NCBI GenBank assembly: GCA_016794545.1
Contig: JAEUJX010000140.1
Span: forward strand, 1 to 32,719
DNA: 32,719 bases
Direction of reading: 5' to 3'
From: Myxococcales bacterium
GTDB taxonomy: Bacteria > Myxococcota_A > Polyangia > Haliangiales > Haliangiaceae
Positions 28,851 through 32,719 of the stretch are shown here, piece by piece. A program made the position numbers and the translations under genes. The notes below the pieces were generated by a model that saw nothing but the letters and a program-made list of their open reading frames with translations, was not told where the DNA came from and made no database searches. Within the stretch, counting starts at the first letter, position 1. Each line of letters starts with the position of its first letter.

Positions 28851-31800
28851 ATGAATCGATATCTCGCGATCGTTCTGATCGCCGTGGGCGCCATCCTGGT
28901 CGGGCGCATCGATACTCACGACGGGCGCTGCGAGTGGGTGTTCCTGGACCACGGGCTGACGATGAAGACGTGCCCGTCGGGCGTGGTCCGCCAGACCGCG
29001 CAGCTCGACGTGTCGGGCGTGCGGCGCAGCGCCGAGGCCTCCGTCGCCATCCGCGCGACCGCGCACTACACGGTGAAGGACGCCGACGCGGTGCAGACGA
29101 TGCCACTGCCGGAGATCACCGAGATCGCGCTGTCGCTCGTCGACGCGAAGGGCAAGGCGACGCCGCTGGCGACCAAGGAGTGGAAGGCCGGCGCGACGAC
29201 GTTCAAGGTCCCCGAGGTCCCCGACGGTGACTACAAGCTGCACGCGACGTACAAGACGCGGATCGGCGCGGGCGAGCTCGACGCCCAGATCCCGCTGTTC
29301 ACGCCGGCCCGCGTGCACGTGATCACCGACCGTCCGCTCTACGAGCCGGGCAACACGGTGAAGTTCCGCGCCGTCGTGCTCCGCGCGCGCGATCTCGCGC
29401 CGCTCGACGGCCGCCCCGGCCGCTGGGTCGTGAAGGATCCGAACGGCGAGGTGCTGCTCGAGGAGAAGATGGCCGCGACGGAGTGGGGCGTGGTGTCGGG
29501 CAGCTTCCCGCTCGATCGCCAGGCGCAGACCGGCTACTGGCACGTGGCGTGGGAGTCGGCCGGCGCCGTCGACGACGTCACGTTCAACGTCGAGCCGTTC
29601 AAGCTGCCGCGGTTCCGCGTCGAGGCGAACGCCGACAAGACGTTCTATCGCGCCGGCGACAAGCCGACGGTGAAGGGCGCGGTGATCTACAGCTCCGGCG
29701 CGCCGGTCGCGAAGGCGAAGGTCGAGATCACGTGGGACATCCAGGGCGAGTGGCCGCCGCCGCTCGACTGGCAGGAGAAGACGCTGCCGAAGACCGCGAC
29801 CACCGGCGAGAACGGCCGGTTCGAGCTCGCGCTGCCCGTCATCCCGAAGGACCTCCAGGGGCAGGTCACGCTCGCGGCGAAGATCGCGGCGATCGATCCG
29901 GCGGGTGACCGCGTCGAGGGGGCCGCGTCGGTGCTGCTCTCGGAGGACGGCATCGCCGTCTCGTCGGTGACCGAGCTCGGCGACGGGCTCGTCGAGGGCT
30001 TCAACAACCGGCTCTACGTGCGGGTCGCGACGCCGGACGGACAGGTCGTGCGCAAGGCCAAGGTCACGCTCAAGCGGTCGTGGGAGGCGAACGACAAGGG
30101 CATCGAGGCCGAGCTCGACGAGGACGGCGTCGCCGCGCTCCAGATCGATCCGGGCGCGCCGGTCAACATCACGATCCCGGCGCTGCCGTACCGACCGCAG
30201 CCGAAGGTCGCGGCCGTCACGCGCGACGAGCCGCAGGATCTGATCGGCGGTGAGGGTGCGTCCCTCGCCGATCAGGTGGAGATGGACAAGTGGCTCGTGC
30301 CGCTCGGCGCGTGCGGGAAGTGGTACGGCGCGACCGGCGGCGGCGACGACGAGAGCGGCGCGACCTCGGCGCTGATCGGCATGCGCGTCGACGCGGGTGG
30401 TGGCATCGGCACCGTCGGTGCGGCCGGAAATCCGCTCGCGCAGTGCGTGGCGCAGATCGTCCGCGGCAAGCGCCTGCCCGCGGGCAACGAGCGCATGTAC
30501 ACCGTGACGTTCAACTTCGAGGATCCGGAGATCTCGACGCTCGAGTACGAGGTGCACAGCGCGCTCGAGCAGCCCGACGAGCTGGCGGGCGCGATCGGCA
30601 ACCTCGCGAAGAGCGCGCGCGACTGCCTGCCGCGCAACGTCGAGGGCGACCTCGGCAAGCTGCTCCAGTGGCGCGTGACGAAGGGCAGCAAGGAGGTCCA
30701 GCTCGGGCCATGGATCACGGTCAAGCCGCCGAAGGCCGAGGACGGGGAGGAGCCCGAGCCACAGACCACTGCGGCCGCGGCGTTCGGCTGCGTCAGCTCG
30801 CGCATCGGCACGCGCGTCACACTCTCCGAGCCGTTCGGCGGTGACGGCCTCGGCTACATCGACTTCACCGTGACGCCGCCGGAGACCGCCACCGACGTGC
30901 GGCCGCAGCCGACGACGATGCTCGGCTACGAGCTGACCGTGGTCGCGGACATCGAGGGCAAGCCGTCGACCAAGCTGCGCATCCAGCCGGGCGACATCCC
31001 GAACGTGCGGCTGCGCGTCACGCCGATCCTCGCGAAGCACGGCGACAAGGTCACCGTCGAGGTGATCCGCGGCCCGGGCTTCTCCGGGAAGCTGCCGAAG
31101 AAGCTCGTGCTGACGCACCTGAAAGGCAACCAGGAGGCCGAGCTCGACGACGATCGCAAGGCGACGTTCACCATCGACGACAAGATCGAGGGGTGGGCCG
31201 AGGTCCAGGCGCTCGGGGCGCGGGCCCTCGTGTTCGTGAAGCCGAAGAGCGACCTGGTCGTGTCGGTCGAGCCCGAGAAGCCGCGCTACAAGCCGGGCGA
31301 TCAGGCGCAGCTCGCGATCTCGACGAAGATCGCCGGCAAGGGCGGGCCCGCCGCGGTCGGCCTGTTCGGTGTCGACGCGAGCCTCGGCCAGCTGGTGTCG
31401 CTGCCGGGCGCGGACTCGATGGGCCGGCTCCAGCCGAAGGTCGAGACCGGCTCGCCCGCGTTCGGCATGCTCGACGGCCAGGCGCTCACGCTCGGGCGGA
31501 TCCGGGGCGCGAACGCGGCGGCGGCGACGGTGCTGCGCGTCAGCGCGATCCCGAAACCGCCGGAGCTCGACGCGGTGGTGAACGCGAGCGCGCGTTCGCA
31601 GTTCGATCCGGTCGAGGAGCTGACCGATCACTTCTATGCGGTGCTCGCCGAGCTGCACGTGCAGGCGCGCGCGTGGGAGACGAAGGCGCCCGCGACGGAG
31701 AAGATGAAGCCGGCGACGATGGCGCGGCTGTGGACGGCGGCGCTCGACGCGGCGGAGAGGAAGGGCGAGAAGGTGACCGACGCGTACGGCCGCCGGCTCA

Positions 31801-31925
31801 CGCTGTCGATGCTGCCGGGAGATCTGTTGTCGCTGACGGATCCGCGCGCGGTGGTGGTGGTCGGGACGCGGTTGCCCGAGGACACGGAGAACTGGTCGGA
31901 CTGGGTCGCGAAGGAGAAGCCGTGA
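28851..31925 (+). CDS. alpha-2-macroglobulin N-terminal half (MG domains to bait region)
   Basis: 1024 residues from ATG at 28851 with a strong SD (GGGGGGA, 7 bases away). Residues 1-19 are a signal or anchor (MNRYLAIVLIAVGAILVG). MG2 is marked by ITDRPLYEPGNTVKFRAVVL (about 158-177), MG3 by ADKTFYRAGDKPTVKGAVIY. A Cys-bearing insertion lies in the middle third. The bait-adjacent BRD domain is seen in VEPEKPRYKPGDQAQLAIST and VGLFGVDASLGQLVSLPG. It ends RLPEDTENWSDWVAKEKP. The thioester/TED and C-terminal domains are not here; they belong with the next gene, which starts one base inside this stop. Bacterial macroglobulins trap proteases in the periplasm. Confidence 0.88.
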   Translation: MNRYLAIVLIAVGAILVGRIDTHDGRCEWVFLDHGLTMKTCPSGVVRQTAQLDVSGVRRSAEASVAIRATAHYTVKDADAVQTMPLPEITEIALSLVDAKGKATPLATKEWKAGATTFKVPEVPDGDYKLHATYKTRIGAGELDAQIPLFTPARVHVITDRPLYEPGNTVKFRAVVLRARDLAPLDGRPGRWVVKDPNGEVLLEEKMAATEWGVVSGSFPLDRQAQTGYWHVAWESAGAVDDVTFNVEPFKLPRFRVEANADKTFYRAGDKPTVKGAVIYSSGAPVAKAKVEITWDIQGEWPPPLDWQEKTLPKTATTGENGRFELALPVIPKDLQGQVTLAAKIAAIDPAGDRVEGAASVLLSEDGIAVSSVTELGDGLVEGFNNRLYVRVATPDGQVVRKAKVTLKRSWEANDKGIEAELDEDGVAALQIDPGAPVNITIPALPYRPQPKVAAVTRDEPQDLIGGEGASLADQVEMDKWLVPLGACGKWYGATGGGDDESGATSALIGMRVDAGGGIGTVGAAGNPLAQCVAQIVRGKRLPAGNERMYTVTFNFEDPEISTLEYEVHSALEQPDELAGAIGNLAKSARDCLPRNVEGDLGKLLQWRVTKGSKEVQLGPWITVKPPKAEDGEEPEPQTTAAAAFGCVSSRIGTRVTLSEPFGGDGLGYIDFTVTPPETATDVRPQPTTMLGYELTVVADIEGKPSTKLRIQPGDIPNVRLRVTPILAKHGDKVTVEVIRGPGFSGKLPKKLVLTHLKGNQEAELDDDRKATFTIDDKIEGWAEVQALGARALVFVKPKSDLVVSVEPEKPRYKPGDQAQLAISTKIAGKGGPAAVGLFGVDASLGQLVSLPGADSMGRLQPKVETGSPAFGMLDGQALTLGRIRGANAAAATVLRVSAIPKPPELDAVVNASARSQFDPVEELTDHFYAVLAELHVQARAWETKAPATEKMKPATMARLWTAALDAAERKGEKVTDAYGRRLTLSMLPGDLLSLTDPRAVVVVGTRLPEDTENWSDWVAKEKP

Positions 31926-32719
31926 TGAACAAGCAACTCTCGATGGTGCTGATGCTCGCGGCGATCGCGGCGTGCAAGGGGCGCGATCAGCGGCACGAGC
32001 AGGCGCAGAAGGGCGTCGACCTGCCGAGCCGCCCGAGGTACCAGATCGCGGCGCCCGCATCGCGCGAGGACGACGGCTCCGACGAGTCCGGGGGCACGGG
32101 CACCGCGATGGCGCTCGAGGAAGGGAAGATGGGGAAGAAGGACTCGGATCGCGCCGAGGGCCAGTACAAGATGAAGAAGGAGCAGTCGGACCCCGAGCTC
32201 GCGCGCCAGCAGGCGATCGAGCAGGCGAGGAGCGCCGGCGTGCTCGGTTCCAGCGAATTGTCCTCGGGCCTCGACGACGCGGACATGAACGGCGGGTTCG
32301 GCTTCGGTCGATCGGGCTACGGCCCCGGCGGCGGCGGGACCGGCTGGGGCACGGTCGGCACGGGCAAGTACGGCACGATCGGAAAGGGCTCGGGCACGGG
32401 CTCCGGCTATGGTGTCGGCGGCGGCCGCGGCGGCATGCGCGGACGTGGCGGCGGCGGCCCGGCGGACGCGGAGCCCGAGGCCGCGACGCGCGCGTGGTTC
32501 CCCGAGACGTTTCTGTTCGAGCCGCTGGTGGTGACCGACGGCAACGGCGCGGCGACGGTCCCCGTGCGCGTGCCCGACCGGCTGACCACGTGGCACGTGC
32601 TCGCGCTCGCGCACTCGCGCGAGGGCGCGCAGGGCGGCGCGACCACGGAGTTCCTCGGCACGCTGCCGGCGTACGTCGATCTCGTCGTTCCGAAGTTCCT
32701 CGTGATCGGCGACGAGATC
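31925..32719 (+). CDS. alpha-2-macroglobulin C-terminal half, lipoprotein (cut by window edge)
   Basis: 265 codons are visible from ATG at 31925 and the gene continues beyond the window. It shares one base with the previous stop (TGATG). A lipobox signal (MNKQLSMVLMLAAIAAC, Cys17) opens it, then a charged Lys/Glu/Gln segment (about 60-110) and a Gly-rich linker (about 128-180, e.g. GTGSGYGVGGGRGGMRGRGG). From about 194 the text is that of the A2M domain directly after the bait region in one-chain macroglobulins: TRAWFPETFLFEPLVVTDGN, AATVPVRVPDRLTTWHVLAL. The thioester motif and TED domain should lie just past the window. The protein is thus the second chain of a split macroglobulin. Confidence 0.86.
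   Translation, partial: MNKQLSMVLMLAAIAACKGRDQRHEQAQKGVDLPSRPRYQIAAPASREDDGSDESGGTGTAMALEEGKMGKKDSDRAEGQYKMKKEQSDPELARQQAIEQARSAGVLGSSELSSGLDDADMNGGFGFGRSGYGPGGGGTGWGTVGTGKYGTIGKGSGTGSGYGVGGGRGGMRGRGGGGPADAEPEAATRAWFPETFLFEPLVVTDGNGAATVPVRVPDRLTTWHVLALAHSREGAQGGATTEFLGTLPAYVDLVVPKFLVIGDEI

Follow-up and report, generated by a model that had tools for sequence, protein, structure and literature searches.

A macroglobulin encoded by two overlapping genes was identified at the end of contig C532 (JAEUJX010000140.1), an entire contig of 32,719 nucleotides that constitutes the window analysed here and belongs to an 8.5 Mb draft genome of a Myxococcales bacterium (GCA_016794545.1). The two products, termed chain A and chain B, are firmly members of the alpha-2-macroglobulin superfamily, and the boundary between their genes lies at the position of the bait region, the segment whose cleavage in macroglobulins lets the chain rearrange. 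A first-pass annotation of the contig had proposed such a split into two coupled genes; it was confirmed, and the coupling was found to be kept across the phylum Myxococcota, at 36 junctions in 35 genomes. Chain B retains the body of a macroglobulin C-terminal half and has lost the thioester motif. The reading favoured here, at a probability of roughly 0.6, is that chains A and B reassemble into a thioester-less, membrane-anchored, two-chain macroglobulin. Contigs, loci, and genomes are labelled C, L, and G, respectively, and all features of the window are on the forward strand.

The gene boundary and its conservation

The chain A gene (28851-31925; ATG at 28851, TGA at 31923-31925; 1024 amino acids) was delimited using its open reading frame, Pfam matches, and orthologues. 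Chain B starts in a different frame at ATG 31925-31927, and the stop and start codons share one base in the sequence TGATG (31923-31927), which was read directly; the overlap is kept in orthologues. A Shine-Dalgarno-like site for chain B, AAGGAG, is located within the end of chain A (31911-31916). The first 265 codons of chain B are in the window (31925-32719), and the final 141 bases of the window are also the first 141 of contig C266, which carries the rest of the gene (bases 142-1902). The frame continues without interruption from one contig into the other and ends at C266:1902, giving a protein of 851 amino acids, and the join is supported because the joined chain B aligned end to end with that of the contiguous orthologue L058 at 77% identity. 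The one-base overlap, the lipobox, the charged segment, the Gly-rich stretch, and the WFPETF motif of the first-pass annotation were all read as it had described them.

The 36 junctions were read in two sets, of 16 and 20, with genome G449 contributing two; the phylum was named from the taxonomy of orthologue L027. Orthologues of chain B were present among relatives, in 19 of the 290 genomes of the class (strong full or contig-cut matches), and in 40 of the 379 genomes of other classes of the phylum. Chain A was present in 20 of the 290, that is, in the 19 genomes with chain B and in G027, where the contig terminates within the chain B linker, hence the sole difference between the two counts in the class. 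An intact chain A gene was directly upstream of chain B at every junction. The offsets from stop to start were -4 nt (27 junctions), -1 nt (7), 0 nt (1), and +2 nt (1), and a Shine-Dalgarno-like word was located just 5' of chain B at 36 of 36 junctions as against 17% of random positions within A genes. Production of the two chains in a 1:1 ratio, as had been suggested, would fit the gene overlap. A lipobox was present at the start of chain B in 34 of the 36 proteins (33 by rule and L127 by eye); the other two begin with one hydrophobic helix (L128) and with at least seven (L129). In a tree obtained by a quick search with no bootstrap, for which the tool issued a warning on long branches, the chain B bodies formed a single clade with a Shimodaira-Hasegawa-like approximate likelihood ratio (SH-aLRT) support of 100.

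No fused A-B gene was seen among the split-family loci read. Three candidates (L119, L120, and L131), in which the stop-to-stop frame of chain B spans 1585-2206 codons, were rejected as fusions; chain A is in a different frame and stops at the start of chain B. At one locus, L070 (G005:C954), the frame of the chain B orthologue is broken mid-gene, either in the organism or by an assembly error.

Domain content of the two chains

The N-terminus of chain B, MNKQLSMVLMLAAIAAC, is a lipoprotein signal; its lipobox, IAAC (31964-31975), has Cys17 as its cysteine, with a Lys at +2; no paper on the effect of Lys at +2 on lipoprotein sorting was found in the literature searched. After the linker, WFPETF (32495-32512) begins a segment that contains the second half of MG6 and runs into MG7 (PF00207; 32495-32719; conservation 0.75). 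PF00207 matched chain B with 44 bits against a cut-off of 21, and the match was full-length in orthologues. The body consists of the second MG6 half, MG7, CUB, a TED-like toroid, and MG8. The helical toroid was located at residues 368-637 in a structure model of orthologue L058, and the Pfam TED family itself gave no scoring match in chain B or its orthologues. In profile comparison the whole body matched the C-terminal half of the GCFEQ macroglobulins (E=8e-84), with the alignment gap of chain B falling exactly on GCFEQ. A search of the complete 851 residues for C..Q found none, and chain B therefore has no CxEQ thioester motif; nor was CxEQ present in any of the orthologues at the junctions read. 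Loss of the thioester motif in the chain B lineage is thus shown at the level of sequence. The earlier suggestion to look for both features beyond position 32719 was borne out for the TED-like toroid, by model and profile, and not for the thioester.

In chain A, MG2 (PF01835) was matched above cut-off at residues 154-247 (E=1.2e-23), and A2M_BRD was matched partially, with 21.5 bits against a curated cut-off of 22.7. The earlier description of a chain ending after its BRD domain needs some refinement, as the match is partial and just below cut-off and about 180 conserved residues come after it. The order of elements is an N-terminal hydrophobic helix, MG1-MG5, a Cys-rich insert, the first half of MG6, and a helical tail. 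The N-terminal segment MNRYLAIVLIAVGAILVGR (28851-28907), delimited by hydropathy in chain A and eight orthologues, has no lipobox and is predicted to be a membrane anchor or an uncleaved signal; in orthologue L027 a lipobox replaces it. The insert (residues 470-680; 30258-30890) holds two Cys-pair repeats, recognized by profile comparison and by the predicted order of helices and strands. These tentatively resemble TonB-C/AgmX domains (weak profile matches, P=1.3e-4 and 0.023), and a Pfam and NCBIfam search of the insert and tail gave no match. The first MG6 half (residues 797-860; 31239-31430; conservation 0.58 over 34 orthologues) contains GLFGVDASLGQL, a VDE-type macroglobulin motif. The C-terminal tail (31581-31922; conservation 0.62) ends DAYGRRL...GTRLPEDTENW, and its last 110 residues are helical in the model. 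Compared by eye, the tail occupies the place of a DFWGNxY...SGPDE..DD segment in the bait region of one-chain relatives, where that segment immediately precedes a disordered linker; the gene boundary therefore falls between the segment and the linker.

The model of chain A matched complement C3 beta chains and A2ML1, and the best matches of the chain B model (L058) were the C5 and C3 alpha chains. These matches hold at the level of domains only, the TM-scores being low since the domains are not reliably placed. With A corresponding to the C3 beta chain and B to the C5 or C3 alpha chain, the boundary cuts MG6, as in C3 and C5. Both halves of MG6 are conserved, at the values given above, that in chain B being the highest of any segment of the chain, and both were poorly predicted when each chain was modelled alone, which would fit an MG6 domain that is completed in trans. 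Of the three mechanisms put forward in the first-pass annotation, reassembly of two chains in the envelope is the best supported, because the boundary cuts MG6 and both halves are conserved.

The lipobox is followed by a linker of 173 residues (31976-32494), with a charged cassette and then a Gly-rich part, which is predicted to be disordered, the model of the orthologue giving it a confidence of about 30. The distance from lipobox to WFPE was 81-173 residues in 35 of 36 B proteins, with a median of 101, the exception being L129 (G449:C18), in which 439 residues precede WFPE. In that protein, residues 1-439 form a polytopic membrane segment with the at least seven hydrophobic helices mentioned above, replacing both the lipobox and the linker. 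Length was kept and sequence was not, the median pairwise identity being 18% for the linker against 38% for the body. The charged cassette ESGGTGTAMALEEGKMGKKDSDRAEGQYKM recurs among related chain B proteins and, at 74% amino acid identity, in the bait region of C112, a one-chain macroglobulin of the same genome that has a thioester. The long Gly-rich stretch was restricted to this chain B and its nearest orthologue and was reduced or absent in most others; it also occurs in the C715 bait and in two proteins of the same genome named from their sequences, an AgmX/PglI-type protein (C685) and a VWA lipoprotein (C558). By sequence comparison, the sites of the shared cassette are 32081-32494 in the window, C112:11727-11930, C685:3128-3313, and C558:997-1185. 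A cassette GGTGTxMxLEEGxMGKKDS..., together with a GYGxGGGRGGMRGR stretch, is thus found in otherwise unrelated envelope proteins of one genome. The cassette and Gly-rich segment accordingly look like a shared stalk and not a bait specific to chain B, and the suggestion of a Gly-rich linker serving as bait loses support, because the stretch is confined to close orthologues and common to unrelated proteins.

Assembly, function, and alternatives

In the proposed mechanism, chains A and B would assemble outside the cytoplasm, and the divided MG6 sandwich would be made whole by contributions from both chains, as it is in two-chain C3 and C5. The N-terminal helix would fix chain A in the inner membrane, and chain B would be anchored through a lipid attached to the far end of a disordered tether some 100 residues long. 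The complex would guard the envelope as a non-covalent, thioester-less trap of the kind reported for MagD, and either a cut in the linker would act as its trigger or the complex would be permanently in the cut form. The parts of this proposal differ in strength: formation of an A-B heterodimer is very probable, anchoring of the pair on the periplasmic side of the membrane is also likely, and action as a trap for proteases or effectors is put at slightly below even odds. Several points weigh against the proposal. We infer association, trap function, and trigger, and for association the basis is sequence and models of single chains. The chain A model is weak overall (predicted TM-score, pTM, 0.33), for which reason the low confidence of MG6 is only suggestive. 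A mag-type operon was not seen around the pair, mag genes not having been searched by profile. Finally, the missing thioester might also indicate that the pair no longer acts as a trap.

Complement C3 and C5 are two-chain proteins at the MG6 boundary without being activated, a further cut being needed, and C5 has no thioester. Their chains derive by proteolysis from one precursor, are linked by disulphides, and include an anaphylatoxin domain at the start of the alpha chain. The A-B pair is like C5 (and C3/C4) in that the boundary lies inside MG6, with A corresponding to the beta chain and B to the alpha chain, and C5 and B both lack a thioester. It differs from C3/C4/C5 in that A and B are made from two genes and not from a proteolysed precursor, and in that chain B starts with a lipobox and a disordered leader and has no anaphylatoxin domain.

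Among bacterial proteins, the Type II macroglobulin MagD of Pseudomonas aeruginosa has no CxEQ and traps the protease TEV non-covalently at the inner membrane; it is a single chain, encoded in a six-gene operon and held by its partner MagB (PMC5764988). MagD protects against some peptidoglycan-targeting effectors of the type VI secretion system (T6SS) by a mechanism described as unresolved (PMC12663445). The A-B pair shares with MagD a macroglobulin fold without CxEQ and a location in the envelope tied to the inner membrane, which for A-B is predicted, and differs in being two chains from two genes, each with a predicted anchor of its own; mag-like genes were not found in its neighbourhood. 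Type I proteins (ECAM, the Salmonella A2M) have CxEQ and one chain and are co-expressed with PBP1c (PMC5764988), and the pair has in common with them the superfamily fold only. Judged by its motifs and surroundings, the pair is not of Type I, having no CxEQ, and is not a mag operon; by analogy, it may work like two-chain C5 or like MagD.

As to the trigger, one possibility, itself compatible with a heterodimer, is that the disordered leader of chain B senses protease: the lipid would hold chain B at the membrane, and a cut anywhere along the tether would free the MG6-MG8 body and cause it to rearrange. The position of the linker is exactly that of the bait; it is predicted to be disordered, keeps its length and not its sequence, as bait regions do, and shares its charged cassette with the bait of C112. 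Taken as a whole, it might still be the bait that is cut. Its Gly-rich part may be a generic stalk, however, because it also occurs in the AgmX/PglI-type protein and the VWA lipoprotein, and any lipoprotein tether would be expected to look alike; a bait in the tether is a tentative option. Equally tentative is a constitutively pre-cut state, in which the complex, with no covalent link at the bait position, would always be cleaved-like and would bind its target without a trigger. The chain break is located where bait cleavage breaks one-chain proteins, nothing in a thioester-less protein needs protection from early activation, and some of the MagD in vivo is a shorter product of cleavage (PMC5764988). 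Two-chain C3 and C5, however, stay inactive until cut further, so two chains need not mean a cut state, and a pre-cut protein would have no need of the long tether, which is nevertheless kept.

Somewhat less probable than either of these is that the complex is not a trap, and that the pair serves the envelope as a scaffold, an adhesin, or a signalling complex, built on a reused macroglobulin fold in which the Cys-pair repeats of chain A do the work. The thioester motif is lost in every chain B read, chain A has additional repeats and a helical tail, and the protective mechanism of MagD is itself described as unresolved (PMC12663445). Yet the TED-like toroid and the MG6-MG8 body are conserved without the thioester, and MagD traps protease nonetheless (PMC5764988). 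It is very improbable that the two chains share a transcript but never associate. Each has its own export signal, and their association is a deduction from sequence and models; but each chain alone is without half of MG6, every unpaired A or B gene is explained by a contig end, and the overlap is kept across the phylum. A sequencing or assembly error that would join the frames, or a decaying pseudogene, for which the draft state of the assemblies and the broken frame of L070 might speak, is refuted by the comparative data, as junctions in 35 genomes keep the overlap, the Shine-Dalgarno-like word, the lipobox, and the linker.

The split bears on the purpose of the bait cut, since a gene boundary at this point, phylum-wide and apparently arisen twice, amounts to a natural experiment on it. 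Separate genes for A and B and a separate linker provide genetic handles on how a macroglobulin acts without a thioester, a question left open by the MagD papers, and the chain boundary of C3 and C5 would have arisen in bacteria by gene division and not by proteolysis. No paper describing a two-gene macroglobulin was found, and the claim of novelty is limited to the searchable literature.

Other macroglobulins of the genome and class

Nine PF00207 matches in the genome reduce to eight when a gene pair is counted once, six of them being single-frame macroglobulins with CxEQ (two on C48 and one each on C309, C112, C589, and C715), of which the frames on C112 and C715 run into contig ends. A second split macroglobulin was identified on contig C113 of the same genome (G000; L024:612-5269, reverse strand) from open reading frames, Pfam matches, and sequence comparison. 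It consists of a 566-residue MG2 chain A' with a lipobox, followed after a four-base overlap by a 987-residue chain B' with GCFEQ and an ordinary signal peptide. Among the loci compared, this type of pair recurs in G004, G006, and G015. Like A-B it comprises two overlapping genes divided at the same domain boundary; unlike A-B it keeps GCFEQ and has the lipobox on A' and the ordinary signal peptide on B'. In the tree, B' was placed on a long branch outside the main split clade, next to GCFEQ proteins of the one-chain type (support 93). This placement is most simply read as an independent split, and the C113 pair apparently represents one at the same domain boundary.

The one-chain GCFEQ macroglobulins of the class (L142-L153) are homologous to the whole body of chain B and contain an A-like half, a helical segment, and a disordered linker in the same order; they differ from A-B in being a single chain with the thioester present. 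Two of them, L144 (G135:C2) and L148 (G250:C52), carry an insertion of six predicted transmembrane helices at the place of the bait; after it come a linker EGGTGTRAKGEEGSMGN and then FPETLLW. The bait position may have been turned into a membrane anchor repeatedly in Myxococcota, the split proteins having a leader there that is lipidated or membrane-spanning and these two one-chain proteins the six predicted helices. The bait would then act as a membrane-tethered tripwire, and the two-gene form would be a phylum-wide class in which the halves are made apart and joined via a shared MG6. This wider generalization is offered as speculative and is considered rather unlikely in full.

No gene family was found to recur beside A-B across lineages. 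The neighbours are lineage-specific, examples being an aldehyde dehydrogenase upstream and a MurB-like gene downstream, both named by sequence reading. At L128 (G321:C6), the genes are arranged in tandem as A-B-B, a single chain A gene being followed by two chain B genes.

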